Translations under genes and position numbers: made by a program | Notes under the pieces: generated by a model | The model's input: only the letters and a program-made list of their open reading frames with translations | Told to the model about the DNA's origin: nothing | The model's database searches: none | In this document: piece after piece, positions 24,461 to 36,507 of the stretch | Layout of the letters: each line of letters begins with the position of its first letter | Numbering within the stretch: the stretch's first letter is position 1 | Assembly (NCBI GenBank): GCA_023249255.1 | Contig: JAHFCY010000002.1 | Coordinates: 3,845 to 41,935, forward strand | Source: Candidatus Lindowiibacteriota bacterium | Lineage (GTDB): Bacteria; Lindowbacteria; 2-12-FULL-62-27 | Direction: 5' to 3' | DNA length: 38,091 nucleotides

Positions 24461-25369
24461 ATGAAAAATAAAGTCGTCATCTGCATCGTTTTTCTGATTC
24501 TGGCGGCAATGGCATGGGTCGTATGGTCCCGCTCAAAAAACGATCCGCCGCCACAATTTCCGGAGAATCCTGTTACAGAACTTCTTGCCAGTCTCCACAG
24601 AAACCAGCAACAGACTGATGAAGAGATGGTAAAGATATTGGAAATGTTACTTGCACAACAGGCTCATATTTTAAAAACGACGAAGCTCTTCGAAAATTCT
24701 CTCATCGCCATTGTGGACTCCCACCGCCGGATTCAAACGATTCGGTCGGAGATTCCCGGAGTTCTGGAGGAATTAGAAAAAGCAGACGGGGAAACCCGCT
24801 TGGAATACTTCAAACCGAGCATAACGCTCACCCAACTTCAGGCGTCTCTAAGCGTATACGGTCTGACGTACGAAGCTGACCGCAAAGTCGGCGAACTTGC
24901 CTTGGAAAACTTGGGAGGAGTGCTCCAAATAGCCAACATGATATATACTATTCGAGACCAAAGGAAAACTTGGTTCTCAGGCACGCAGGCTCTTCAAGAA
25001 ATGATTGAGGGACTGCGCCGTGTCCGTACTGGAAACGAGAGCGGCCTTTCAATCATGGAAGCCTCCTCAAAGGCCCTTGTGGAACGACACCGTGAAGATT
25101 TGAAAGCTATGTTGGAAATCCTTGTTGCGGCAAAGGATATCCTGGAGTGGAGCGAAAAGACCCATGCCTCCAAAACAGCCATGCTCCAAAGGTTCGCTGT
25201 TTGGATGAACCAAACGATCGAGCCGGCACAGTCCGAAACTCTGAAACACGCAAAGTTCGTCGCCGCACTTGAAGAATATGCCGCCAAAGAAAAGAAATCC
25301 TTGGACGAAAAAACAAATTCGTTGGACGACGTCTCCAAGGAAATCGAACTGTTACACCGGCCGGAATAA
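24461..25369 (+). CDS. membrane-anchored helical protein, unknown function
   Basis: 302 residues. One N-terminal transmembrane or uncleaved signal segment (about 4-22: VVICIVFLILAAMAWVVW) is followed by a long helical, Glu/Gln/Lys-rich domain with heptad-like stretches (about 40-110 and 180-300), typical of coiled coils. No catalytic motif found. It begins nine bases after the FG-GAP gene stop, so the two are probably co-transcribed. It is clearly more A+T-rich than the gene before it, so the operon may join pieces of different origin. No strong ribosome site (GGCGGGC only), which fits re-initiation from the upstream gene. Confidence 0.8.
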   Translation: MKNKVVICIVFLILAAMAWVVWSRSKNDPPPQFPENPVTELLASLHRNQQQTDEEMVKILEMLLAQQAHILKTTKLFENSLIAIVDSHRRIQTIRSEIPGVLEELEKADGETRLEYFKPSITLTQLQASLSVYGLTYEADRKVGELALENLGGVLQIANMIYTIRDQRKTWFSGTQALQEMIEGLRRVRTGNESGLSIMEASSKALVERHREDLKAMLEILVAAKDILEWSEKTHASKTAMLQRFAVWMNQTIEPAQSETLKHAKFVAALEEYAAKEKKSLDEKTNSLDDVSKEIELLHRPE

Positions 25370-25383
25370 TTCGGCTTCCGCCT

Positions 25384-25839
25384 CTATCGACCAAGTTCCT
25401 GCAGTATTTTCTGTCGGATCAGTCTTGTTCTATCGGTATAGTTCACACGGAACTGCGCGAACGCCTCGTCTGAGAGAACCCATCGCTGACCCTTGGTCAT
25501 ATTCTCCTGCGTATTCGAAACGATGCGACCAAGTTCCACGAAGTCCTCGTGAAAGGTTGTGTCATACACCACTTGGAAAGTCGATTCCATCCCGACGAGG
25601 TCCAATTCAACGACCAAACACTCCCGATCCTGTACCATCGCCCTTGGCGCCATCATGCAAGCGATGAGCCGGTTGCTCCGGTCTTCGAAATCTTTTAGCA
25701 AGTTCAATTTGAGTTCTGACTGCCGACGTTGGTACTCCCATCGATCGGTGATGGCTGTGGCGATTAAACCCAAAATAAGCGCATTGATCACTGCGATGAG
25801 CAGCTTATCGAGAATAAACTTCTTAATATCATCTTGCAT
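25384..25839 (-). CDS. small inner-membrane protein, unknown function
   Basis: 151 residues from the ATG at 25839, chosen because a G-rich ribosome site lies just upstream and the transmembrane helix (about 12-30, LLIAVINALILGLIATAI) then falls at the N-terminus. A longer frame reaches 25989 but its extra part looks non-coding. The helix is followed by a basic/acidic amphipathic stretch (DRWEYQRRQSELKLNLLKDFEDRSNRLI) and a soluble domain of about 100 residues. Such short one-TM proteins often sit in islands; I do not recognise a family. It converges on the preceding plus-strand gene with 14 bases between stops and no strong terminator. Confidence 0.72.
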   Translation of the reverse strand: MQDDIKKFILDKLLIAVINALILGLIATAITDRWEYQRRQSELKLNLLKDFEDRSNRLIACMMAPRAMVQDRECLVVELDLVGMESTFQVVYDTTFHEDFVELGRIVSNTQENMTKGQRWVLSDEAFAQFRVNYTDRTRLIRQKILQELGR

Positions 25840-25903
25840 GACTGGCCCCCCCAAACTGTGATGGGTGGCATTCAAGATCGTCAGATGATCGAAGTCAAGC
25901 GAA

Positions 25904-25931
25904 ATTTTCATGGATGAATTTTCATAGATGA
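25904..25931. repeat. two tandem 14-bp direct repeats
   Basis: ATTTTCAT(G/A)GATGA occurs twice back to back (25904-25917, 25918-25931) with one mismatch. It lies between the start of the minus-strand membrane gene and the plus-strand promoter at 25971, a place where an operator would act on either gene. Confidence 0.5.
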
Positions 25932-25970
25932 TTCTGCCGAATATCGAGGAGTTGCTCATGGATTTATTTA

Positions 25971-25998
25971 TTGACCTAGCCTTCCACATACATATACT
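25971..25998 (+). promoter_or_regulatory. sigma-70-type promoter for the first PadR cassette
   Basis: TTGACC (25971-25976), 16 bases, TATACT (25993-25998): five of six matches in each box. Transcription would start near 26005 and read into the PadR-like remnant at 26071. Confidence 0.55.
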
Positions 25999-26070
25999 TT
26001 TTTCGGAGTATCTGAAACGACCTTTCTTGCATTTGGACTACAGTATTCCCGAACTACAAAGGGGCGAAAT

Positions 26071-26339
26071 ATGTTGTTCTTTACTCGACCGACTCGCGTG
26101 GAGACCGAAATTCTTAGGATATTACGGGATGGCGATTTGACCGGATACGATATCTGTCGGAGACTTCAGGATGCAGATCCACATGTGCCCCTGACGGGAG
26201 AGGGTCTACTGTATCCCATCCTTTACCGCTTGGAGGATCGGAGGGTTGTTCATGCGGAATGGAGGATAAATGAGAGGTAGGAAACGCAGATACTACAAGT
26301 TGACAAACCCGCGGACTGAAAAAAATTAAAACGCTGTAG
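26071..26339 (+). pseudogene. PadR-like winged-helix regulator, frameshifted copy
   Basis: The open frame encodes 69 residues: ETEILRILRDGDLTGYDICRRL, then GEGLLYPILYRLEDRRVVHAEWRINER and stop. Compared with the intact copy at 34049, two bases are missing after AATGAGAG (about 26275), so the conserved end (GRKRRYYKL...) is out of frame; a one-base gain follows further on. The recognition helix and most of the wing survive, so a shortened protein might still bind DNA, but the copy looks broken. An AGGGG ribosome site precedes the ATG. Confidence 0.75.
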
Positions 26340-26355
26340 CGATTTACGGGGCTTG

Positions 26356-26479
26356 GCGCTGTCTGTCCTGCCAAATCACTTCTCCTGTTGCATACGAGGG
26401 GGGCTATTCCAAATAGGAGGACGGACAAATGGCCCCCACATTCTTTTGTGATAGTGTTTTTATTTAAGGCCGACAGCGC
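26356..26479 (+). promoter_or_regulatory. structured 5' leader / translational attenuator, copy 1
   Basis: Outer arms GCGCTGTC (26356-26363) and GACAGCGC (26472-26479) pair perfectly. Inside, GGGGGC (26399-26404) pairs with GCCCCC (26432-26437) and encloses a perfect AGGAGG (26415-26420) and the ATG of a 12-codon peptide. TGTCTGTCC can also pair with GGACGGACA, so alternative folds exist. The following ORF at 26494 has no ribosome site of its own, so its translation probably depends on this structure. The same layout recurs at 34335-34456. Confidence 0.55.
26429..26467 (+). CDS. leader peptide (12 residues), copy 1
   Basis: ATG to TAA encodes MAPTFFCDSVFI, with AGGAGG 8 bases upstream, the best ribosome site in this region. 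The second cassette encodes MAPALFFDRVFI at the same place and with the same length, so the frame is kept although bases differ. It probably acts through its translation (opening or holding the leader hairpin). Confidence 0.5.
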   Translation: MAPTFFCDSVFI

Positions 26480-26493
26480 ATCTTGCCTATCCG

Positions 26494-26973
26494 ATGAGCA
26501 ACCTAACGGTCCCTATCCACGTGTTCTTGAGAAATTGCGTCTCCGAACTATCTCCCGCCGTACAGGACGCGATCATTTCACCGGAGATATTGAATGGCGA
26601 GCACCCCCCGTCCGTAGAGGAACTCGTGACGCGGTTCCCTCCGATGTGTGTTGTGCTCGCATTTCCAAATCACGATAAAGGATATTTGCTCCGTGTTGCG
26701 AAACGCCCGAAGGCGGGCGGGTTAAATCTGGATATCGAACCTCTGCCGGACACTATCATTTTGTTCGGCCTGACGGATGAGCACAAGCAAGCGGTCCATT
26801 TTCTGGCGCAGAAATGCAGAGCGATGAATCAACCCGCGCGGCAGGATCGTGCGCCCTGGCCCCCCAAGAAATTTATCCCGAAAAAGAAAAACATCCTCAA
26901 GAGTGGCGGGCACATCTGTTACAGGCCCGGGCACATTGAAACGGATCGACGAGCTTCTGCGCGTGCCGGCTGA
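26494..26973 (+). CDS. uncharacterised cassette protein, copy 1 (chimeric 3' end)
   Basis: 159 residues. The first 65 match the protein at 34471 closely (TVPIH(V/M)FLxNCVSELSPAV, ISPxILNGExPP(S/T)VxELVTRFPPM). Then about 30 residues present in copy 2 are replaced by a short different stretch. Similarity resumes at DTIILxGxxDEXK and the basic PKKFxPKKKxILK. The last 25 residues come from read-through into a foreign sequence and are probably not native. No recognised domain; the basic C-terminal half suggests nucleic-acid contact. No ribosome site; likely coupled to the leader peptide. Confidence 0.6.
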   Translation: MSNLTVPIHVFLRNCVSELSPAVQDAIISPEILNGEHPPSVEELVTRFPPMCVVLAFPNHDKGYLLRVAKRPKAGGLNLDIEPLPDTIILFGLTDEHKQAVHFLAQKCRAMNQPARQDRAPWPPKKFIPKKKNILKSGGHICYRPGHIETDRRASARAG

Positions 26974-27376
26974 GATTCGATTTCTGTCGGTTGAGCCGCT
27001 CTTAGCGCCGGTTGATTTGTCACCATGGTGCCCCTTGGAATATGGATTGACACTGCATCCCCCCGAAAATACTCTGCCGCCTATGAGTCGGTACGGATAC
27101 TATGTCGAGGGCTACGAAGACATCTCCGTTGTTGGCTGGGACCCGCCGTTAAGAACGCATTACGCGCAAATATCACACAACAACGATCCGACCCCCGATG
27201 ACGAACGGCCGACAAGATGTTGGATTGGCCAATTAGCTTATGAATGCCCGACTGTGGAGGAATTGGACGGCAAACTGAAAGGGCACGGGTTACAGGGGCT
27301 CCCGCAACGAGAGCATCCCGGCGCGAAGGAAGACTTGTGGGATCTCCTGCGTCTGGACAAGAAGATGAGCCGATAG
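26849..27376 (+). pseudogene. fragment of a phage Gp37/Gp68-type (DUF5131) gene
   Basis: From about 26936 the frame reads RIDELLRVPAEIRFLSVEPLLAPVDLSPW, the typical core of DUF5131 (radical-SAM-like phage proteins, where RFLSxEPLLGPVDL is highly conserved). The N-terminal part with the CxxxCxxC cluster is absent: upstream codons are the cassette ORF read in another frame. The usual C-terminal part (VGGESG..., KQWG) is replaced by an unrelated stretch ending LWDLLRLDKKMSR. It is therefore truncated on both sides and marks a recombination junction near 26930. Confidence 0.6.
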
Positions 27377-27390
27377 GGGCCGGGTTTCAC

Positions 27391-27918
27391 ATGGGCAATA
27401 GATGGAAATTTGCGGAATCAAAATCGTCCAAAAAATTCAAAGAACCGACGCTGGAAGAGAAGGCCGCGTTGGAGCTTTACATCTTGGTTCTACAGCACGG
27501 CGATAACCCATCCGTATTACCTCAAGAGCAGAAATCAAAATTTGATGTGGCCGACGAACTCGTGGAATGCTCCATTCGAAGGTGGATTCGATCTCGCCCT
27601 GTGGCAGATGAGGGTTGTCGGGATTGGCGTAAGAAATTGCACGAATCTCTACGCATCCTACATCATCGCCTGTATCTCGATTCTTACGTTGAACTCACAA
27701 CTATAGGGAGGATGATTTCTGCGCCGGCAAATCGAGGCAAGGAACCCGATGAAGAAGCAAAGCAGAAAATCCGATATATCGGTCAACGTCTCTGGGATGC
27801 CGGCAGTATAGAAATGATGCAGGCGGTATTTTATCCCGTCGTCAACAAACTCCGTGTTCCAGATTTTAATGTCCATCTTTCCTACATCTGGTCTGGTATC
27901 GGAACTTGGAGATACTGA
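27391..27918 (+). CDS. uncharacterised protein upstream of the FtsZ-like gene
   Basis: 175 residues from the ATG at 27391 (MGNRWKFAESKSSKK); the frame is open further upstream but that part overlaps the DUF5131 remnant. Mostly helical, charged, soluble, with no signal or transmembrane segment (LEEKAALELYILVLQ, DWRKKLHESLRILHHRLYLDSYVEL). No known motif. Its stop is one base before the ATG of the FtsZ-like gene, so the two are almost certainly translated together, and it may be a regulator or partner of that protein. Confidence 0.72.
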   Translation: MGNRWKFAESKSSKKFKEPTLEEKAALELYILVLQHGDNPSVLPQEQKSKFDVADELVECSIRRWIRSRPVADEGCRDWRKKLHESLRILHHRLYLDSYVELTTIGRMISAPANRGKEPDEEAKQKIRYIGQRLWDAGSIEMMQAVFYPVVNKLRVPDFNVHLSYIWSGIGTWRY

Positions 27919-27919
27919 T

Positions 27920-29338
27920 ATGGCAGAACCCGAGGGAGAAAAGGACCTGAAAAGTGAGAAAGAAGCGGGGGCGGACCGCCTTGACCTGAAAGTGATTGGG
28001 ATCGGTGGTGCCGGTGGTAATGCAATAAACCGTATGATTGATGTTGGAATTAGTGGTGTTGAATTCGTAGCTATGAATACGGATTCCCAAGTCTTGAAAA
28101 GCTGCCGAGCGCCGAACAGACTGCTCCTCGGCGAGAACCTGACGGGGGGACTCGGCGCCGGCGGAAAGCCCGAGATTGGTCGAAAGGCGGCGAATGAAGA
28201 TCGAGATGGCATTCTGGGTATGTTAGAGGGAGCCAAAATGATATTTCTCACCGCTGGTATGGGCGGAGGTACAGGAACGGGGGCAGCACCTGTGGTTGCT
28301 GAACTGTCCAAAGAACTGGGCATTCTGACGGTTGGTATCGTCACAAAGCCGTTTGCGTTCGAAGGCCCGGTGCGGCTCAGGAACGCCGAGGATGGCATCA
28401 TGGAACTCAAGGAGCACGTCGATACCCTCATCACTATTCCGAACGACAAGATCCTCGAAGTTTGCACAGAGAGGCTGTTCATCAACGATGCTTTTGCTCG
28501 CGTAGACGACACGCTCCGGCAGGCCATCCAGGGAGTTTCGTCCATCATTGCCGACGAGGGCGTCATCAACGTCGATTTTGCAGATATTAGGACTGTCATG
28601 GGCGAACGTGGAGAGGCGCTCATGGGCATAGGTCTAGCATCGGGCGAAAACCGTGCGAAAGTGGCGGTAATGCAGGCAATGCGCAATCCCCTTACGGAGA
28701 ATTTATCGATCACAGGAGCCAAGTCGGTTCTCCTCTGGATCCGCGGGGGGGTTGATTTCGAAATGCGGGAATTTAGCCAGATCGCGACGATGGTTCAAGA
28801 GGAGGCTGGTGGCGGAACCAACATAATCACCGGTTACAGTATCGACCAATCTCTAGTTGACCGTATTCAGGTTATCTTGATTGCATCGGGCATTCGAAAG
28901 TCGGCTGTAAAACAGAAGACCTATGCAAAGGACGAGGTGTCACAAATGCCTGCCATATCGTCCCCCGCTTGGAGAGTTGTGGCAGGCGGACGGATTGTTA
29001 GAACCGTCGTTTCTGGGATTGAAGGGAATCTGGTACTTCAAGAGGAGCAAGAGGAACTGGATATTCCCAGTTTCCTTCGGAGGGCAAAGCCAGGAAATAA
29101 GGGCTCGATAGCAGTAAGTACGTCTTATGACCTTGCAGATTTCCGGCGCGATCACGTCTGGATAATGGAAAATCGCCAGAGTCTGCCTGAGCGATACGAT
29201 GGGCAGTGGATAGCCGTCAAAAACGAGAAAGTCATTGCCCACTTCCAAGATTTGGACGCGTTGCTCTCCGCACTACCCAATGCCGCACATACTTGCATTG
29301 AACATCTCACGCGGGATGAGCCAGACGTGGTCCAATGA
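27920..29338 (+). CDS. FtsZ paralogue fused to a C-terminal DUF5678-like domain
   Basis: 472 residues from the ATG at 27920 (GGAG 8 bases upstream). The GTPase domain is well kept: GIGGAGGNA (27-35), AMNTDSQVL (51-59), the tubulin signature GGGTGTG (115-121), and the T7 synergy loop NVDFADI (217-223) with its catalytic Asp. After the core (about 325) comes a variable linker containing EELDIPSFLRR (378-388), which matches the conserved FtsZ C-terminal peptide that binds FtsA, ZipA and other partners. In ordinary FtsZ the protein ends about here; this one continues with a DUF5678-like domain (about 405-465: DHVWIMENRQSLPERYDGQWIAV, KVIAHFQDLDALLSAL). The stop overlaps the next ATG (ATGA). Because it lies in an island with accessory genes, it is probably a second FtsZ, not the housekeeping one. 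Fusion and coupling suggest regulated assembly or turnover; that role is inference. Confidence 0.88.
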   Translation: MAEPEGEKDLKSEKEAGADRLDLKVIGIGGAGGNAINRMIDVGISGVEFVAMNTDSQVLKSCRAPNRLLLGENLTGGLGAGGKPEIGRKAANEDRDGILGMLEGAKMIFLTAGMGGGTGTGAAPVVAELSKELGILTVGIVTKPFAFEGPVRLRNAEDGIMELKEHVDTLITIPNDKILEVCTERLFINDAFARVDDTLRQAIQGVSSIIADEGVINVDFADIRTVMGERGEALMGIGLASGENRAKVAVMQAMRNPLTENLSITGAKSVLLWIRGGVDFEMREFSQIATMVQEEAGGGTNIITGYSIDQSLVDRIQVILIASGIRKSAVKQKTYAKDEVSQMPAISSPAWRVVAGGRIVRTVVSGIEGNLVLQEEQEELDIPSFLRRAKPGNKGSIAVSTSYDLADFRRDHVWIMENRQSLPERYDGQWIAVKNEKVIAHFQDLDALLSALPNAAHTCIEHLTRDEPDVVQ

Positions 29339-29769
29339 AACTTCCTGGTTTCTATCAAGGGGCCAAACCTTGTGTCTTCGCCGTGGTGAGGGGCGGCAAT
29401 TCTCTGCATTCGTTTTCGGGCTATGTTCGGTTTGTGATAGATACGGCGGCGGTTCGGACAACACTTTTGGATGCTGATGCGCGGCGTCTGCGAATACCCG
29501 AGGAACTACTAAACCCGAGGGATAAGCTCGTTGGGCTTGGCGGTGCCGTCAGAACCTTTCTTATAGATAAGGCAGAGTTAATATTCGAATCCGCCGATGA
29601 AGATTTTTCCGTGTCCATGGCAATTTGTGTGACGCGCCACGATCTGGATGGAATGCCAACCGATGATAGAGCCAAGGTCGCCGCGCTTGCCTCGGTTCTT
29701 GGCTTGGACTTCATCAACAAGTTCAAACTGCTCTGTGAATATAGAAAAGACGTTGTGCGAATGGAATAG
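29335..29769 (+). CDS. retropepsin-like aspartic protease
   Basis: 144 residues, the size of one retropepsin domain, so the active enzyme would be a dimer. Active-site loop FVIDTAAVRTTL (33-44) carries D36-T37-A38 in place of the usual DTG/DSG; DTA occurs in bacterial and viral family members. The flap region is LVGLGGAVRTFLID (65-78), and the closing LGLDFINKFKL (122-132) matches the LGxDFLxxFxL end of clan AA proteases. No signal peptide or membrane anchor, so cytoplasmic. Its ATG overlaps the stop of the FtsZ-DUF5678-like gene by four bases, which means translational coupling and suggests the two act together, for instance protease and target. Substrate unknown. Confidence 0.82.
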   Translation: MKLPGFYQGAKPCVFAVVRGGNSLHSFSGYVRFVIDTAAVRTTLLDADARRLRIPEELLNPRDKLVGLGGAVRTFLIDKAELIFESADEDFSVSMAICVTRHDLDGMPTDDRAKVAALASVLGLDFINKFKLLCEYRKDVVRME

Positions 29770-29834
29770 AGTGATGTCTCTGTTGCGTGTTAATCACTTG
29801 GTCGGCAGTCATTAACTTGAGGAGGGTTTCGACC

Positions 29835-30443
29835 ATGCTCGACAAGATAAAGGAATGGGATCCGAAGTTGGGGCAAATAATCAGTTGGTTTCTATTTTTA
29901 GTTACAATTTCGTCATTCCATTATTGCGTCGGGTATTACACGCCTTTTGGAATTGCTATTGGTAATTTCTTCTCCCCGTCGGACTACTGTTTCAATAAGT
30001 TGACATCCGTGGTCGGTCAGAACGTGGTTGTATTCATCGTGCTCCTTGTCGCCGCGATTCTTTGTGATGCTTTGAGGAAGTGGCACCCGTCTTTTCTTAA
30101 CGAAGGAACCTTCACTGCGGCCCGCTTGTTACTCCTTATATTGGCCGCCATGGGATTGGCGATGTTCTATTTATATGAAGGGCACGAGGCCGGCGTGGGC
30201 GCGAAAATGCAGCCCCATTCCGTTATTCGTTTGACTTCTCAGGATACACCGCTGAATGCAGTCATCATTGGAGCTTCGAGTAACTACCTATATCTATTGG
30301 AAGTTTCGGATTCTCATACCATCGTAATCCCCCTCTCCTATGTGATGCGCATTGAGACACCGCAAACATTCGTTGTAGCCGCTCGCGGGCGGGACGCAAG
30401 GGGAATGACCGATACTGGTCCGACGCGTTCTACGAATGAGTGA
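29835..30443 (+). CDS. three-helix membrane protein with C-terminal beta-rich domain
   Basis: 202 residues; ATG at 29835 has a strong GGAGGG ribosome site 8 bases upstream. Transmembrane helices at about 15-34, 64-80 and 97-114, then a soluble tail of about 85 residues with beta-strand patterns (SVIRLT, NAVIIGASSNYLYLLEV, HTIVIPLSYVMRIE). No family recognised. It follows the protease gene by 65 bases in the same direction and could belong to the same transcript. Confidence 0.8.
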   Translation: MLDKIKEWDPKLGQIISWFLFLVTISSFHYCVGYYTPFGIAIGNFFSPSDYCFNKLTSVVGQNVVVFIVLLVAAILCDALRKWHPSFLNEGTFTAARLLLLILAAMGLAMFYLYEGHEAGVGAKMQPHSVIRLTSQDTPLNAVIIGASSNYLYLLEVSDSHTIVIPLSYVMRIETPQTFVVAARGRDARGMTDTGPTRSTNE

Positions 30444-30491
30444 ATTCTGTTTTGACCGTTACGGAAATACTGCCAACCGGAAGATCTGAAT

Positions 30492-30668
30492 GTGGCGGCG
30501 GTCAAATTGTCCGACGAGACCGAACTCTGCGAGGGTTGCGGGCAGTTCAAACAAATCGTCGAGGAAGTGGCCGAACCGAGGAAGAGGGGTGATCACAATA
30601 GATTCGATTTGGAACGCCGCCCCCTACTCAATCGGATGATCCCATGGGTGTGCTGGATTTATGAATGA
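30492..30668 (+). CDS. possible small protein with CxxC motif
   Basis: 58 codons from a GTG: VKLSDETELCEGCGQFKQIVEEVAEP and a basic second half. The residue pattern looks protein-like and the frame ends eight bases inside the next gene (stop at 30668, next ATG 30661). A clear ribosome site is missing. It may be a remnant or a small zinc-binding protein. Confidence 0.3.
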   Translation: MAAVKLSDETELCEGCGQFKQIVEEVAEPRKRGDHNRFDLERRPLLNRMIPWVCWIYE

Positions 30669-31185
30669 TTCTGAAATTCGTTCCTACATCGAGCGCGACC
30701 TCAATTCTCTCCTCGACGAATTCTGCAATTCGGACAGATGGTTTTTGCACCGTCAGATATTGATGGCACGGCGAGATCGGAAGCCAGAAGACATGCTTAC
30801 GTATCTTACTTTCCAGACAAAGCGTCGGTCTAACTGGCGTGATGTATTCCCGGATTGGTTCACGGCCAACGCCGCACGTATCCATGAACTCGTGTGTGTG
30901 AAATGGCAGTATTGCATCAAACGGGAGGAAGGCCGCTTCAACGACCAAGTATCCTTCGTGGCCAGCCTTTCGGATGTGGTCGCGGTTCTTACCATGGGTG
31001 TTCCCCCGGTACTTCTTGCAACCATTCTACTCAAGCTTGGCCTTGATAAATTCTGTGGGTGTACCGACACGGCGACCGGCGCTGTCACTGAATACTCTTG
31101 TGGCCATATTACCAAGTCCGGCAGAGCGTGTTCCCGGCGTGTTGGGTCCAGGGGGATACACTGTTTCCAGCACAAAAAATCGTGA
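30661..31185 (+). CDS. membrane protein with C-terminal Cys/His zinc-knuckle-like tail
   Basis: 174 residues. N-terminal soluble helical domain (1-95, Arg/Lys- and Trp-containing), one or two hydrophobic segments (about 104-128, VVAVLTMGVPPVLLATILLKLGL), then a compact tail with C132, C134, C147, H149, C157, C168 and H171. The end pattern CGHITKSGRACSRRV...GIHCFQH resembles the short CxxxTxxGxxCxxxxxxGxxCxxH zinc modules seen at the ends of many accessory proteins. Function unknown; a membrane-linked sensor or effector is possible. Confidence 0.75.
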   Translation: MNDSEIRSYIERDLNSLLDEFCNSDRWFLHRQILMARRDRKPEDMLTYLTFQTKRRSNWRDVFPDWFTANAARIHELVCVKWQYCIKREEGRFNDQVSFVASLSDVVAVLTMGVPPVLLATILLKLGLDKFCGCTDTATGAVTEYSCGHITKSGRACSRRVGSRGIHCFQHKKS

Positions 31186-31195
31186 GGATGCCAAC

Positions 31196-31252
31196 ATGGG
31201 TGGCGGAAGCAATAAGGTAGAAATGGCTCCTACCCTTGACCTCCGGCAGTGA
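31196..31252 (+). CDS. possible 18-residue peptide
   Basis: ATG with GAGG 8 bases upstream encodes MGGGSNKVEMAPTLDLRQ and stops seven bases before the PIN-like gene, which has no clear ribosome site of its own. It could be a coupling leader or chance. Confidence 0.25.
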   Translation: MGGGSNKVEMAPTLDLRQ

Positions 31253-31258
31253 TATTGT

Positions 31259-32113
31259 ATGAAATTGACATATCTATTCGACACATCGGCAATGCGTGGG
31301 GCATCGGTTCAGACGATCGAAAATTTGCAACGGCGCAATTATTACCTGTGCGTGTCTCCGTACTCATTTTGGGAAACGCTTTGCCATCTTGACGAAGGCG
31401 ATTTCGGCCGTTCAAAGGGCCAATTGCTGAAATTCGACCGCGTTGGAATTCTGGACGACCCCCGCGCGGAAATTGAAGCCCCTATATGCAACGCCGATCC
31501 CGATCTCGAAGACCGGTCGCCCGACGGCCATCTGATTAAAGCGGTACTTGTTTCGTTGAGGACATCAGTATCTCTTCGTGCCTTTTACTCTTCCAATATA
31601 CAGGATTCGAAGGGCAGAATGCGTCAGATTTCCGGAATCGCGGACAGGGTGCGTGCCGCCTTGGACGAGGAAGAGAGAAGATACATCAGAATGACCAATG
31701 ATATTGTTCAGGCGCTGGCCTCCGGGACTGTTGCGCACGAAACTGACAGACATCGTCACCGGGCCATATTAGATTTAGTAGAAGGATATGTGATTCAGTT
31801 ATCCCAGCGTGGCGCCTCCGAAATAGGGCTACGAGCTCGTCTCATCAATGATTCTTACATTCACTATGCCTACATTTTTATTCGGGCGTTGAAACTCTTT
31901 CAGTTCCGTAATACTCAACTTTCCAGAAATGATTATGAGGACGGTAGAATATGCCTCCATTTAAAATTGAATGTGCCATACTGTCTTGTCACGGCCGATA
32001 AAAGACAGAAGGAAACGATTGAGGAAATAATTGCGATTGTACGCCGACTCGACGATCCCCAATTCCAAATTATCCCCACGGTCACACATTTAGATTCACT
32101 ACGAGGAGCATGA
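31259..32113 (+). CDS. PIN-like domain protein (putative ribonuclease)
   Basis: 284 residues, roughly twice a minimal PIN domain. Acidic residues occur in PIN order: D8 in YLFDTSAMR, E39 in SPYSFWETL, the cluster N224-D225-E227-D228 in SRNDYEDGRICLHLKL, and D247 in PYCLVTADKRQ. The long central helical insert (about 80-210) is unusual. PIN proteins cleave RNA and are often toxins, but no antitoxin-like gene lies directly before it, except a possible 18-codon frame. Assignment rests on motif order only. Confidence 0.68.
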   Translation: MKLTYLFDTSAMRGASVQTIENLQRRNYYLCVSPYSFWETLCHLDEGDFGRSKGQLLKFDRVGILDDPRAEIEAPICNADPDLEDRSPDGHLIKAVLVSLRTSVSLRAFYSSNIQDSKGRMRQISGIADRVRAALDEEERRYIRMTNDIVQALASGTVAHETDRHRHRAILDLVEGYVIQLSQRGASEIGLRARLINDSYIHYAYIFIRALKLFQFRNTQLSRNDYEDGRICLHLKLNVPYCLVTADKRQKETIEEIIAIVRRLDDPQFQIIPTVTHLDSLRGA

Positions 32114-32246
32114 TCAACGTGCCGACGCTTCCTTTTTTACGTGGTTACGCATGGAAAACGAGATAAACTGGGGATTGTTATCCTTAATACCATACATAAG
32201 AGAGGTCGCGGCCCGGTGGTCATCCTGACCTCCGGCATATTACATC

Positions 32247-32375
32247 TCACTTCAACTCCCTCAGCCCCAATTCATCCAGCACCCACGAAATGTCGATGGT
32301 AAATCCCTTGTCCTTGAACTGCCCCTCAAGCCCGTGGAGATGGTCCTTCATGAGTTCGATCAGTCGTGGCCGCAT
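32247..32375 (-). CDS. small uncharacterised protein or gene remnant
   Basis: 42 codons from the ATG at 32375, which has GAGGA about 8-9 bases upstream (IELMKDHLHGLEGQFKDKGF, then WVLDELGLRELK). The frame is open to an ATG at 32507, and the part just upstream (SFFIEDPK) also looks coding, so this may be the 3' end of a gene cut when the neighbouring IS element arrived. No family recognised. Confidence 0.4.
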   Translation of the reverse strand: MRPRLIELMKDHLHGLEGQFKDKGFTIDISWVLDELGLRELK

Positions 32376-32590
32376 CTTGGGATCCTCTATGAAAAAAGAA
32401 GTCAAGGGTAGACTTTCCCCGTCAGCCGAAGGCTGAAGATGCGCTGCTTCGGCGGATATGATGTGTGGATCAGACGAAACGTTTTGACACCTCGTGGATT
32501 GTCCCATTACCGTATGCGTTCACGACCGATGCTGACCTGGTTCCCGAATCCTTCCCACAGGGTTCGACTACTCCTCTATCCGAGACTCGC

Positions 32591-32804
32591 GACCGCCTCG
32601 ACGCCCCCTTGAAGAGGGCGGCGAGGGGCTGCGGTCTATGGGAACAACGGGTCTGAGGGGTCGAGCGGCCAACCCCGGCGAGAGACTGAACCCAGCGTGG
32701 GAACGTCTAGAACCCCTAATCGGACCTTGTGCTCGACCGACCGTCGGGAACCGAAACCGTCGTGAGAACGGATGCGGCATGGGAAAAGCCCTTCGGTGTT
32801 TTCC
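32591..32804 (-). ncRNA. candidate bridge/seek RNA region of the IS110-type element
   Basis: The gene-free stretch next to the transposase stop has a long hairpin (32591-32636): GACCGC pairs with GCGGTC and, inside, CTCGaCGCCC pairs with GGGCGgCGAG around a short loop. More GC-rich short stems follow (near 32745-32765). In IS1111-type members the guide RNA lies in the 3' non-coding end, in IS110 proper in the 5' end; here only the 3' side has room. The RNA itself is inferred. Confidence 0.4.
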
Positions 32805-33869
32805 TCAGACTCGTTGAGTATGTGTCAGGAATCGATCCGGATCGAACGCCTCCTTTCGCTTCCACATCGCCCAGACCGTTGTGAGGATTTTGCGTTGAGT
32901 CGTCAGGCGCGCGTGGACGGGATTGAGGTTGCGTTTGCGCAGGTCGAGATAATAGTGCGCGACGGCATTTTTGCCGGAGTTACGTTTCATCGCCCCGATG
33001 AATGCCCGGCGCGTCGCGGATTTCAGTACGCCGAGTCCCTGCCGGGAGAGATGCCGGCGACCGAGCTGCTTGCCGGCGGACGACCGATCAACGACGCCCA
33101 GCCGGCCATAGCTACAGAGTTGGGATTTGTGTTGGAAGCGATCCGGCGTTTGGATGTAGGCCGAAAACTCGCAGGCGGTGATGATGCCGATGCCGGGGAT
33201 GGTCCGGAACCGGCCGACCTCCTCGAAGGCACGGCTCATCTTATGGACGTGGCTGAGAATCTCCTTGCGAGCGGCCATGAGTTCATCCAACACGCGATAC
33301 CATGCGCGGAGGCGCACCTGAGCCACGTCGGGAAGAGCCTCCATCGCCCCTTCGCGTCGCTGCGGGTGATAGATCTGCGTGGCCGACGGGTCGACGCCGT
33401 ATTGGTTGTAAGATTTTCGGACGCGGTTCTTCATTTTGACGATTTCACGAACAATCGTCTCGTATTGCTGGACGGCTCGCCGGAATGCGACACGTGCGGG
33501 GTCGATGGAGTGATAGACCTCGACGATGGCGCCGATGCGGAAAAGGTTTGCAAGTTTGTAGGCGTCGACGGGGTCGCTTTTGGTGTCCGCCTCGGCGATG
33601 AGGCGGTTGCGTCTGGGGTCGACGGAGATGATGCGGTCTACCAGGGGCGTCAACTGTTCGACGAACCATTGCGCCATCGCCGATTCCTCGATGACGAGGG
33701 TCACCGGCGCCGGAAATACGCCGATGGCTTTCTTGAGCGCATCAATTTTGGTGGGCAAGTCGCGGAACCGGCGAATCAACGTGCCGCCCCTGTCCATTCC
33801 GCACAAGTCACACGTTCTGAGATGGCCGTCCATTCCGATGATGGTTCCTGTTGCCTTGTCTATCGTCAT
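32805..33869 (-). CDS. IS110-family transposase
   Basis: 354 residues from the ATG at 33869, which has a perfect AGGAGG about 7 bases upstream (a longer frame to 33923 lacks this). The N-terminal RuvC-like DEDD domain shows IGMDGH (D14), VIEES (E61/E62) and DTKSDPVDAYKLA (D99, D102). The C-terminal Transposase_20 domain shows FRTIPGIGIITACEFSAYI and the Ser-bearing DRSSAGK. These recombinases cut and join DNA through an RNA-guided complex, leaving no target duplication or only a short one. Reading frame is intact, so the element may be active. Confidence 0.93.
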   Translation of the reverse strand: MTIDKATGTIIGMDGHLRTCDLCGMDRGGTLIRRFRDLPTKIDALKKAIGVFPAPVTLVIEESAMAQWFVEQLTPLVDRIISVDPRRNRLIAEADTKSDPVDAYKLANLFRIGAIVEVYHSIDPARVAFRRAVQQYETIVREIVKMKNRVRKSYNQYGVDPSATQIYHPQRREGAMEALPDVAQVRLRAWYRVLDELMAARKEILSHVHKMSRAFEEVGRFRTIPGIGIITACEFSAYIQTPDRFQHKSQLCSYGRLGVVDRSSAGKQLGRRHLSRQGLGVLKSATRRAFIGAMKRNSGKNAVAHYYLDLRKRNLNPVHARLTTQRKILTTVWAMWKRKEAFDPDRFLTHTQRV

Positions 33870-34048
33870 TGCGGACCTCCTGTTGTTGGGATATGGTGGC
33901 TCTTCAAATGAGCACCGGCACACACTATCTCAACAGCATATCCGCTTTTCTTATTACCCCGGCCGCCTGACGCGGCGTCCAGTTATCGATCGCCGGCACC
34001 GGCTCATCCATAAATTTGGTGAACACCCAAACCAGAGAGGGGCAAAAT

Positions 34049-34318
34049 ATGCTGTTCTTTGCTCGACCGACTCGCGTGGAGACCGAAATTTTAAGGATAT
34101 TAGAGGATGGGGATTTGACGGGATATGAAATCTGTCGGAGACTCCGGGAGGTGGATCCCTATGCGCTCATGATGGGGGAGGGTCTGCTGTATCCAATCCT
34201 TCAGCACATGGTGCATCGGAAGTTTATTTATGGAGAATGGAGAATAAATGAGAGAGGGAGGAAACGCAGATACTACAAGCTGACAAAATGCGGGCTAGAA
34301 AAAATTAAAACGCCGTAG
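34049..34318 (+). CDS. PadR-like winged-helix transcriptional regulator
   Basis: 89 residues from the ATG at 34049 (AGAGGGG ribosome site; an upstream in-frame start at 34016 is less likely). PadR pattern: ETEILRILEDGDLTGYEICRRLRE (helices 1-2), GEGLLYPILQHMVHRKFIYGEW (recognition helix and wing), then GRKRRYYKLTKCGLEKI. It is a short, N-terminal-type PadR without the usual C-terminal dimer helix. It probably binds its own promoter and controls the cassette. Confidence 0.85.
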   Translation: MLFFARPTRVETEILRILEDGDLTGYEICRRLREVDPYALMMGEGLLYPILQHMVHRKFIYGEWRINERGRKRRYYKLTKCGLEKIKTP

Positions 34319-34334
34319 CAACTTACGGGTCTTG

Positions 34335-34456
34335 GCACTGTCTGTCCTCCCGGATCACTTCTCCTGTTGCATAGAGGGGGCTATTCCAAATAGGAGGACG
34401 GACAAATGGCCCCCGCATTATTTTTTGATCGTGTTTTTATTTAACGCCGACAGCGC
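34335..34456 (+). promoter_or_regulatory. structured 5' leader / translational attenuator, copy 2
   Basis: Same design as copy 1: outer arms GCACTGTC (34335-34342) and GACAGCGC (34449-34456, one G-U pair), inner hairpin GGGGGC (34376-34381) with GCCCCC (34409-34414) that encloses AGGAGG (34392-34397) and an ATG, and a small CTATT/AATAG stem just before AGGAGG. The base pairs survive although the sequences around them differ, which supports a working RNA structure. Confidence 0.55.
34406..34444 (+). CDS. leader peptide (12 residues), copy 2
   Basis: Encodes MAPALFFDRVFI with AGGAGG 8 bases upstream; copy 1 has MAPTFFCDSVFI. Equal length, equal spacing to the next ORF (26 bases) and a shared MAP...F.D.VFI pattern argue for a translated, selected frame. 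Confidence 0.5.
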   Translation: MAPALFFDRVFI

Positions 34457-34470
34457 ATGTTGCCGATCTG

Positions 34471-35034
34471 ATGAGCCGCCGAACGGTCCCAATCCACATG
34501 TTCTTGAAAAATTGCGTCTCCGAGCTATCTCCCGCAGTCGAGGCGTTGGCCATTTCGCCGAAGATATTGAATGGCGAGCGCCCCCCGACCGTCGCGGAAC
34601 TCGTGACGAGATTCCCTCCGATGCGCGTTGTTCTCGAATTTCCAGATCGGACCGGAAGATATTTCCTCCGCCTCATCCAGCGCTTGGAGGCACTTGGGCC
34701 AGAAATTCCGAAGGGTAAGATGATGAGAGAGGCTGCGCTTGTTGTTGACGCCATTGATGACCGCGCGGATACGATTATTTTGTCCGGCATGGCGGATGAA
34801 TATAAGGTGGCGATCCGTGCTTTGACGCAGAAATGTCGAACGATGACTCAGTCCGCACGCAAAGATCGCGCGCCCCAGCGCCCCAAGAAATTTGCCCCGA
34901 AAAAGAAAGACATCCTCAAAGGCGGCGGTCAAGTAAATCCAGAGGCGAACAAGAGGGCGGACATCATCCGATCCCGCGCCGCGCGAACGGGACGTTTCGA
35001 AAAGTTGTTTGACGACGACGATTCGGCGGCGTGA
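34471..35034 (+). CDS. uncharacterised cassette protein, copy 2 (intact)
   Basis: 187 residues. N-terminal domain (1-60: PIHMFLKNCVSELSPAVEAL, LNGERPPTVAELVTRFPPM), a helical middle missing in copy 1 (about 70-100), DTIILSGMADEYKVAIRALTQK (about 100-120), then a strongly basic stretch (KDRAPQRPKKFAPKKKDIL), and an acidic end (FDDDDSAA). No family recognised; it looks like a nucleic-acid-binding adaptor. There is no ribosome site before the ATG, so it probably depends on the upstream leader peptide. Confidence 0.75.
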   Translation: MSRRTVPIHMFLKNCVSELSPAVEALAISPKILNGERPPTVAELVTRFPPMRVVLEFPDRTGRYFLRLIQRLEALGPEIPKGKMMREAALVVDAIDDRADTIILSGMADEYKVAIRALTQKCRTMTQSARKDRAPQRPKKFAPKKKDILKGGGQVNPEANKRADIIRSRAARTGRFEKLFDDDDSAA

Positions 35035-35080
35035 CGGGAGTGTCGAAATAAAATACACGTCCACTTACGAATGAAACTTG

Positions 35081-35098
35081 GTGCCAAAATAGTGCCAA
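35081..35098. repeat. direct repeat GTGCCAA x2, 11-bp period
   Basis: GTGCCAA at 35081 and again at 35092, one helical turn apart, on the left side of the tRNA fragment. Possible arm-type binding sites for the nearby integrase. Confidence 0.4.
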
Positions 35099-35238
35099 GT
35101 CTGCGGTTAAATCCGCTGAATTCGCGTGAGTGCCCGTGAAGCGGACGGGACGGTATAATTTTTCTGTAACTGGTTGGAAGTTGCGTAAATACATGTATAA
35201 AGAGTGGGATGCGAGCGGGATGTATCAGAGGGTAGGTA

Positions 35239-35282
35239 TCGGCTTAGAAGGCCGATGCTCTATCCAACTGAGCTACGGGCGC
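35239..35282 (-). pseudogene. 5' fragment of tRNA-Arg(UCU), probable attachment site
   Basis: Minus strand from 35282: acceptor strand GCGCCCG, TA, D-arm GCTCAGTTGGATAGAGC, anticodon stem/loop with CTTCTAA (anticodon TCT at 35246-35248), closing stem GCCGA at 35239. After this the sequence has no T-arm (no GTTCGAATC) and no acceptor partner, so the gene is cut in or just after the anticodon arm. Tyrosine recombinases commonly cross over in the anticodon arm, and such a gene starts about 210 bases away, so this is most likely one end of an integrated element. Confidence 0.8.
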
Positions 35283-35333
35283 CCAATTGATACTGAATAT
35301 GTTACACAATTATTCGGAAAATCCAAATTCAAC

Positions 35334-35351
35334 TTGTACCGGATTTGTACC
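35334..35351. repeat. direct repeat TTGTACC x2, 11-bp period
   Basis: TTGTACC(G/A)GATTT begins at 35334 and again at 35345. It lies on the right side of the tRNA fragment with the same 11-base period as the GTGCCAA pair on the left, fitting recombinase or excisionase arm sites. Confidence 0.4.
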
Positions 35352-35426
35352 AGATTTGGAAGTCGAGTTTTCCACAATAATCTCATGATGAGGGAATCCT
35401 ACCATGATTGGGAGGGACCGGCGATA

Positions 35427-35498
35427 ATGAAAATCCAAACCCGCCCAGCCCAAGTGTCGACTTTGACATTATCGAGGGAGGTGATGGCCTGTGTCTGA
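35427..35498 (+). CDS. possible 23-residue leader peptide of the integrase gene
   Basis: ATG with GGGAGGG about 10 bases upstream encodes MKIQTRPAQVSTLTLSREVM and three more residues; its stop lies eight bases inside the integrase frame, so termination would place ribosomes at the integrase GTG. The peptide frame also contains the integrase ribosome site. Confidence 0.3.
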   Translation: MKIQTRPAQVSTLTLSREVMACV

Positions 35499-36507
35499 CT
35501 ACGTACACCGAGCCAAGATCATAGGCAATTGCTTGAGCATAGTAAAGAAGTCGGCCTATAAAAAAACGGCGCTCACAAAAGACGAATTATTAAAACTGAC
35601 CGAATCCTTTTTTTCTTCGATACGCCCGAATACGCAGCGAGGCTACAACAACGCAATCAGACAGTATTGCGAGTTTGTAGGAGTAAGAAGTCCGTCCGAA
35701 CTCATCCGCCTGCTGTTTCAAGTCGGCCCCGGGAAAGCTCATTGCATGTTTTTGGATTTCAGAAATCATTTGCAAAAAAAATGTCTGGCACCGGGTACCA
35801 TCAACAGCCACATCAGCGCTATTCGACAACTTGTGAATTTTGCCAACACGGTTGGAGTAATCAACTGGAAAGTATCCCTCAAGCGCCTGCCATATCAGTT
35901 GCTACGAGATACGCGAGGGCCTGGGCGGGAAGGCATGATCAAAATGCTTGCTGAAGCGGCCAAACTGCCCGGTCTAAAAGCAATTCGAGCAATAGCTCTT
36001 CTACGCGTCTTCTGGGACTTGGGATTTCGGAGGGGGGAGGTTGAGCATTTGGACGTATCGGACGTTGATCTTGATGACGGACATGTTTGGGTCCTCGGCA
36101 AGATGAGGACGCAGAAGGAGAAAGTAACCCTTCCGCCGGAAACCATCGAGGCACTCAAAGCATGGTTGGGTGATCGGCGATCTGGACCGCTTTTTATGAA
36201 CCTGGTGCGTGGTGCGTATCAGGGAAAACGGATGAGTGATGACAGTATCTACGCTCTGATCCGCGCACTGGGTAAGGCGTGCGGAATCAGAGTTCATCCG
36301 CACGGGATTAGGCATGCGGCGATAACGGATGTCCTCGATTTGACCAACGGAGACGTCCGGTCAGCTCAGAGATTTGCACGACATAAGACCTTGGACATGG
36401 TCCTGATATATGATGACAACCGAAAAGATATTGGCGGGGTTGCATCGAAGCTGATTGCTAGACACTTGCCCACGCCTCCCATTCCGCCGGCACCCACTCC
36501 GGCCTGA
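35491..36507 (+). CDS. tyrosine recombinase / integrase
   Basis: 338 residues from a GTG with a strong GGGAGGTGAT ribosome site. N-terminal SAM-like core-binding domain (about 30-130: SIRPNTQRGYNNAIRQYCEFVG, LAPGTINSHISAIRQLVNFA). Catalytic domain (about 145-310): R180 in DLGFRRGEVEHL, Lys in LGKMRTQKEKVTL, H271 and R274 in HPHGIRHAAIT, H298 in ARHKTLDM, nucleophile Y307 in IYDDN. All six catalytic positions are present, so it should be active in cutting and rejoining DNA. The truncated tRNA-Arg upstream is its likely attachment site. Confidence 0.93.
   Translation: MSDYVHRAKIIGNCLSIVKKSAYKKTALTKDELLKLTESFFSSIRPNTQRGYNNAIRQYCEFVGVRSPSELIRLLFQVGPGKAHCMFLDFRNHLQKKCLAPGTINSHISAIRQLVNFANTVGVINWKVSLKRLPYQLLRDTRGPGREGMIKMLAEAAKLPGLKAIRAIALLRVFWDLGFRRGEVEHLDVSDVDLDDGHVWVLGKMRTQKEKVTLPPETIEALKAWLGDRRSGPLFMNLVRGAYQGKRMSDDSIYALIRALGKACGIRVHPHGIRHAAITDVLDLTNGDVRSAQRFARHKTLDMVLIYDDNRKDIGGVASKLIARHLPTPPIPPAPTPA

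Follow-up and report, generated by a model that had tools for sequence, protein, structure and literature searches.

A second FtsZ with a DUF5678 tail overlaps a retropepsin-like gene in a low-GC island

Results

Gene Arrangement of the Locus

The stretch of DNA analysed here, referred to as the window, is 38,091 nucleotides long and lies on contig C290 of a 3.35-Mb genome assembled into 366 contigs. An FtsZ gene within it continues in frame into a DUF5678 domain and overlaps the start of a gene for a small retropepsin-like protein. The features of the locus are listed below.

24461–36507, no strand: low-GC island holding the module, GC about 0.50 versus about 0.60 to its left; boundaries approximate
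27391–27918, +: upstream ORF; start uncertain, longest ORF from 27244
27908–27911, +: GGAG, putative Shine–Dalgarno-like element read directly from the sequence, 8 nt before the fusion ATG
27920–29338, +: FtsZ-DUF5678 fusion gene, 472 aa; ATG at 27920, stop TGA at 29336–29338
27986–28465, +: tubulin/FtsZ GTPase domain, residues 23–182 (Pfam PF00091, E = 1.2e-51)
28610–28894, +: FtsZ_C domain, residues 231–325 (Pfam PF12327, E = 1.9e-23)
29054–29083, +: conserved FtsZ C-terminal peptide ELDIPSFLRR, residues 379–388
29084–29107, +: junction linker AKPGNKGS, containing AGGAAATAAGGG
29108–29110, +: ATA (Ile397), near the start point of the free-standing relative L082 (MAEQL...)
29108–29335, +: DUF5678 domain; profile-matching part residues 409–452 (29144–29275)
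29335–29338, +: ATGA, overlap of the fusion stop with the protease start
29335–29769, +: retropepsin-like single-domain protein, 144 aa
29440–29448, +: active-site triplet D36-T37-A38, with Gly replaced by Ala relative to D[TSC]G of the aligned module proteases
29695–29703, +: hydrophobic-hydrophobic-Gly motif VLG of the psi-loop, residues 121–123
32805–33923, −: IS110-family transposase (PF02371, PF01548)
35491–36507, +: tyrosine recombinase/integrase

The ATGA overlap was exact as originally predicted, with the second ORF running from 29335 to 29769. A single nucleotide separates the TGA of the upstream ORF from the ftsZ ATG, and this ORF, for which no match was obtained in Pfam, PHROGs or PADLOC, is probably carried on the same message as the fusion. 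Left of approximately 24.4 kb the GC content is about 0.60, and from there to approximately 36.5 kb it is mostly low, at about 0.50; together with the integrase and the IS110 transposase, this agrees with the island location proposed earlier. The GC3 values of the FtsZ part, the tail and the protease gene were 0.56, 0.55 and 0.51, and that of the integrase was 0.54, compared with 0.75 for the ordinary ftsZ of the host genome and 0.73 for flagellin. Diverged direct repeats of approximately 80% identity (26048–26912 and 34026–34931, or 26048–26970 and 34026–35034 in a wider delimitation) enclose some 7.98 kb that includes the module. Each repeat holds a PadR-like small ORF and a gene to which no function was assigned. 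An overlapping or frame-broken ORF at 26849–27376 resembles, by eye, phage Gp37/Gp68-like (DUF5131) proteins and may be a remnant. At 31259–32113, a 284-aa ORF begins with YLFDTSAM, which looks PIN-like by eye, and gave no library match.

The FtsZ Part and Its Lineage

Residues 1–388 of the fusion correspond to a canonical FtsZ, and 84 further residues follow in frame. The protein scored 392 bits against the NCBIfam ftsZ equivalog TIGR00065 (cut-off 295) and matched FtsZ crystal structures with E-values down to 2.8e-95. As had been claimed, the GTPase motif GGGTGTG, the T7 loop NVDFAD with its Asp and the peptide ELDIPSFLRR are all retained, from which the fusion would be a still competent FtsZ. 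It differs at 3 of the 107 positions that are invariant among the other FtsZs compared, all three conservatively; the host's own FtsZ, taken as the control, gave the same number, 3 of 107. The differences at the three codon positions were 0.26/0.17/0.59 from the host ftsZ and 0.21/0.17/0.57 from the second other FtsZ of the group; the pattern against the host gene is a sign of purifying selection on the fused FtsZ.

The host genome also carries an ordinary ftsZ adjoining ftsA (contig C350), whose product terminates in ELEIPSFLRRAQGR, also given as EELEIPSFLRRAQGR, and the fusion is hence the second FtsZ of this genome. Within the host phylum, which was sampled by three genomes, the fused FtsZ shares 69% identity with the host FtsZ and 71% with that of genome G001, while the latter two share 78%. 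The best match outside the phylum, among those found, reached 51%. The fused FtsZ is therefore assigned to this lineage but was not copied from the host gene recently. The same values bear on whether the locus could be an artefact of assembly, binning or sequencing, as a fragmented assembly and a single occurrence might suggest. The FtsZ part is of the phylum's own type, and its divergence from the host ftsZ is too great for a chimera of that gene; moreover, FtsZ, tail and protease share their GC3, and the overlap is of the type normal for the module described below. Such an artefact is thus considered highly improbable.

A canonical and constrained FtsZ with a GC3 as foreign-like as 0.56 could also be an accessory FtsZ, by which a mobile element secures its own maintenance or changes host division, with the DUF5678/retropepsin part adjusting its turnover. 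However, no replication, partition or conjugation genes were recognised in the window, and we regard this explanation as quite improbable.

The DUF5678 Tail and the Junction

The Pfam DUF5678 model (PF18929; gathering score 23.2) gave 25.3 bits for the whole fusion protein and 28.1 bits for the tail alone; the alignment covers only positions 4–28 of 49, in the first half of the model. A profile that we built without the window sequence detected the tail with E = 2.5e-13, compared with 0.59 for the best of 4000 shuffles. The assignment to DUF5678, for which a profile search had been suggested as the check, was thereby borne out. No function of DUF5678 is known, and a literature search returned only an unrelated mention. 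A PDB match of DUF5678 to the beta-lactamase inhibitor protein II (E = 3.5e-4) was discarded, as it comprised only 13 residues of a repeat. Single-sequence structure models of the tail and the protease were of too poor a quality for a fold search or for evaluating binding.

When 386 genomes were searched with the protease, L082 (43% identity over 75 residues) and L083 (30%) were obtained as the nearest unfused relatives, which come from two other phyla and lack FtsZ. Both loci have DUF5678 as a separate ORF that runs into the start of the protease gene, with the same type of overlap as in the window; L088 is at the same place as L082. The phylum-wide searches around G138, the genome of L082, and around G103 covered tiny phyla of 4 and 1 genomes, respectively. 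The tail exhibited 42% identity to the L082 DUF5678, including the segment NPAHTCIE..TRE aligned with NAAHTCIE..TRDE, and the two are identical at 31 of 66 ungapped residues and differ by 30/22/45 at the three codon positions. The C-terminal part of the DUF5678 domain in the fusion is atypical, and its last 20 residues are matched only by L082 (HTCIE..TR).

The beginning of the tail reads IAVST..., where the DUF5678 of L082 starts with MAEQL..., and AGGAAATAAGGG precedes the ATA codon in the window. The DUF5678 gene may formerly have begun at the ATA, and AGGAAATAAGGG was possibly its ribosome-binding site. To judge from these remnants, the simplest history of the fusion would be the loss of a stop and a start codon between a copy of ftsZ and a DUF5678 gene.

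The Retropepsin-Like Protein and Its Active Site

All Pfam matches of the window protease were below cut-off, including that to gag-asp (0.0021). Profile–profile comparison using hhalign connected it to the other DUF5678-linked retropepsins (95%, E = 2.5e-8), and a match to the FIV retropepsin was obtained at E = 0.0065. A simple profile of the module proteases did not place it above shuffles, whereas a profile–profile comparison with the relative L083 does reach it. The single-sequence AlphaFold2 model had a pLDDT of 33.7. By its sequence, the protein is a remote relative of retropepsins.

The ORF is intact, and the VLG and GLGG motifs are kept. Its active-site segment reads FVIDTAAVRT, equivalent to FVVDTGVLRT of L083, so that the catalytic Asp-Thr/Ser-Gly of clan AA family A2 appears as Asp-Thr-Ala; the other aligned module proteases carry the near-universal D[TSC]G. 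This Gly is described as belonging to the hallmark motif, and in HIV-1 protease Gly27 is a ligand-contacting residue (PMC11313796). In work on RimB, DTG is described as wholly conserved in the family (PMC11957791). Since Ala replaces this Gly, ordinary catalysis is doubtful, and the protein is called retropepsin-like rather than an active retropepsin; the triplet suggests an enzyme that may be weak or dead. The original prediction of a one-domain retropepsin thus holds as remote homology, but it overlooked the DTA triplet. Its proposal that the protease cuts the DUF5678 tail or FtsZ polymers is weaker than was thought, because the altered triplet makes catalysis doubtful. Furthermore, one of the two close relatives is frame-broken: the protease gene of L082 reads DTG but contains disrupting frame changes, whereas the DUF5678 ORF next to it is intact.

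The DUF5678–Retropepsin Module in Other Genomes

DUF5678 matches were fetched from about 800 genomes, and 85 loci were compared. A retropepsin lies directly downstream at 37 of them, mostly with a short overlap, and within the same ORF at another 18, giving 55 of 85. A frame-independent scan added six loci (L007, L021, L030, L061, L063 and L096), and inclusion of L114, L088 and the window itself brought the total to about 64 of 85, a proportion that is affected by how ORFs were called and by the presence of related genomes from one phylum and does not count independent events. About one quarter of the DUF5678 genes have no recognisable adjoining protease. Four truncated DUF5678-only genes of related genomes (L051, L052, L053 and L055) have the same end point just before the protease part, the protease half apparently having been deleted and the DUF5678 half retained. 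The DUF5678-linked proteases matched Ddi1 and retroviral proteases (E = 2.4e-12). All one-ORF proteins (for example L049) come from the phylum of genome G048, which is probably Cyanobacteria; these predicted proteins show that DUF5678 and the retropepsin act there as one chain. Widespread bicistrons, and single-ORF fusions in one large phylum that join the parts physically, support a real functional link between DUF5678 and retropepsins. The two constitute a widespread module, which is new here.

The same arrangement, with DUF5678 directly before a retropepsin-like ORF and a short overlap, is found in the window. The host genome contains in addition an ordinary pair (L014; contig C308, 1247–1845) with DTGAD and a 4-nt overlap, and both other members of the phylum carry a DUF5678 and retropepsin pair as well (L019 and L024). 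The expectation that DUF5678 genes neighbour retropepsins elsewhere was accordingly supported by pairs in many genomes.

Foreign heads were also observed in front of DUF5678. At L114 (949–1704), a response-regulator receiver domain (PF00072, E = 3.5e-15) precedes the DUF5678-like part, which is followed by a retropepsin-like ORF with LLDTGSDMTIVP encoding a DTGS protease. At L021, an ORF from position 784 begins with a FitA-like ribbon-helix-helix (E = 0.0024, below cut-off) ahead of DUF5678, with a DCGA protease after it. L023 carries a 332-residue head to which no kind was assigned. From this architecture with several head types, DUF5678 is probably a protease-binding part that can carry various heads, FtsZ among them. 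The protease of L114 is possibly controlled by phosphorylation, and the arrangement of L021 resembles an antitoxin with a DNA-binding head. A very long RND-transporter-like ORF in L022/L099 (G059) contains a DUF5678-like segment, flanked on both sides by regions with many membrane helices.

Compared with type II toxin–antitoxin systems, the window has the same gene order and small overlap, with the partner-type domain encoded first. This order, the ribbon-helix-helix head elsewhere and the integrase-bearing island are compatible with a decoy, in which the FtsZ head would bait FtsZ-binding phage proteins and their binding would free or activate the partner and harm the infected cell. We know of no phage of this phylum, which counts against such a role, as does the altered catalytic motif. 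None of ten proteins from the region matched a PADLOC defence model, and the phage-defence device proposed originally gained no support from this comparison, in which neither the protease nor any neighbour examined matched a defence family. A precedent by analogy is provided by CapRel-Ebc, which is activated only by the complex of T7 Gp0.4 with FtsZ, that is, an immunity system reading phage-bound FtsZ (PMC13423816). Overall, the decoy is judged improbable.

Search for Further Fusions

A second FtsZ-DUF5678 fusion was not detected in the approximately 800 genomes, and searches of 72,556 plasmid records, of the phage records and of viral contigs were also negative. A search for FtsZ in the regions around the remaining DUF5678 loci gave no match. 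Likewise, plasmids and viral contigs contained no close relatives of the protease, plasmids and phages none of the tail, and viral contigs none of the one-ORF DUF5678-retropepsin family. The FtsZ matches in phage and plasmid records were rejected, as they end at the FtsZ part and several of the records look chromosomal or contaminant. The survey suggested with the original prediction thus showed the DUF5678 and retropepsin pair to be present in many genomes, whereas this genome alone yielded the FtsZ fusion.

An occurrence in a single genome would be expected if the locus were a relic, formed when a mobile copy of ftsZ was accidentally joined to a DUF5678-retropepsin pair by stop loss, the protease being inactive, the tail tolerated and only the FtsZ, or nothing, selected. 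The DTA motif, the frame-broken protease in one of the two close relatives, the commonness of orphan DUF5678 genes, and the degenerate genes and IS element nearby all point in this direction. In contrast, the residues and codon positions shared with L082 indicate constraint on the tail over much of its existence; the protease gene has an unbroken ORF that keeps VLG and GLGG, and the frames and overlap are exact. We consider a relic somewhat unlikely.

Discussion

A Putative FtsZ-Tethered Partner

The reading that we favour, with a probability of roughly 50%, is that of an FtsZ-tethered pair of DUF5678 and a retropepsin-like protein, in which the partner is controlled by the state of division. 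Small retropepsin-like proteins would be bound by DUF5678, acting as an adaptor, an inhibitor or a propeptide-like part, and the two are normally encoded by overlapping genes or in a single polypeptide. In this island, a second, still competent FtsZ would have become the N-terminal head of DUF5678, most simply because the stop codon separating a copy of ftsZ from the DUF5678 gene behind it was lost. With its GTPase and T7 loop intact, the fusion would be expected to join FtsZ filaments, presumably by co-polymerisation, its C-terminal peptide would bind FtsZ partners, and the DUF5678 tail would hold the co-translated retropepsin-like protein on the filaments. Release, activation or retention of this partner would then vary with the state of the division ring. 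Given the DTA triplet, the partner may work through binding or with weak activity instead of as an ordinary protease. Against the tether we count the single fusion, the atypical C-terminal part of DUF5678, the DTA triplet and the poor structure models. A bolder version, in which DUF5678 is a general adaptor linking small retropepsins with interchangeable input heads and the locus a cytoskeleton-gated retropepsin-like switch, possibly with FtsZ as a decoy sensing phage or toxin attack on division, is unlikely.

The link of DUF5678 to retropepsin-like proteins gives this domain a directly testable function, namely that of a protease-binding or inhibitory adaptor. If the tether is true, it would be, to our knowledge, the first known case of a tubulin-family filament carrying its own protease-like partner, and it would bear on division control and on defences that monitor FtsZ.

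Comparison with Known Systems

The fusion has the GTPase motifs, T7 loop and C-terminal peptide in common with canonical FtsZ, represented by TIGR00065 and the host copy. It differs from the host copy in its shorter N-terminus and linker, lower GC3 and island location, and it adds a DUF5678 domain beyond the C-terminal peptide. In the module pairs L014, L083 and L012 and in the one-ORF protein L049, DUF5678 is followed immediately by a single-domain retropepsin, as in the window, and overlaps of 4 nt are frequent; an FtsZ head is missing from them and their motif is D[TSC]G, whereas the window has FtsZ and DTA. L114 and L021 likewise place a foreign N-terminal head on DUF5678 with the protease next to it, but their heads are signalling or DNA-binding domains, unlike the cytoskeletal GTPase found here.

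Among characterised proteases, RimB (PMC11957791) and APRc (PMC4140852) resemble the window protein in being single-domain and A2-like, of a DTG-type family, and RimB is described as acting in cytosolic regulation. No DUF5678 partner was noticed in the accessible text on either protein, and the window protein differs from both in having no DTG. CapRel-Ebc has FtsZ in its sensing complex, as in the decoy considered above, which is a functional analogy only: in that system an unrelated fused toxin–antitoxin detects the FtsZ of the host, whereas in the window FtsZ is itself the fused part (PMC13423816).
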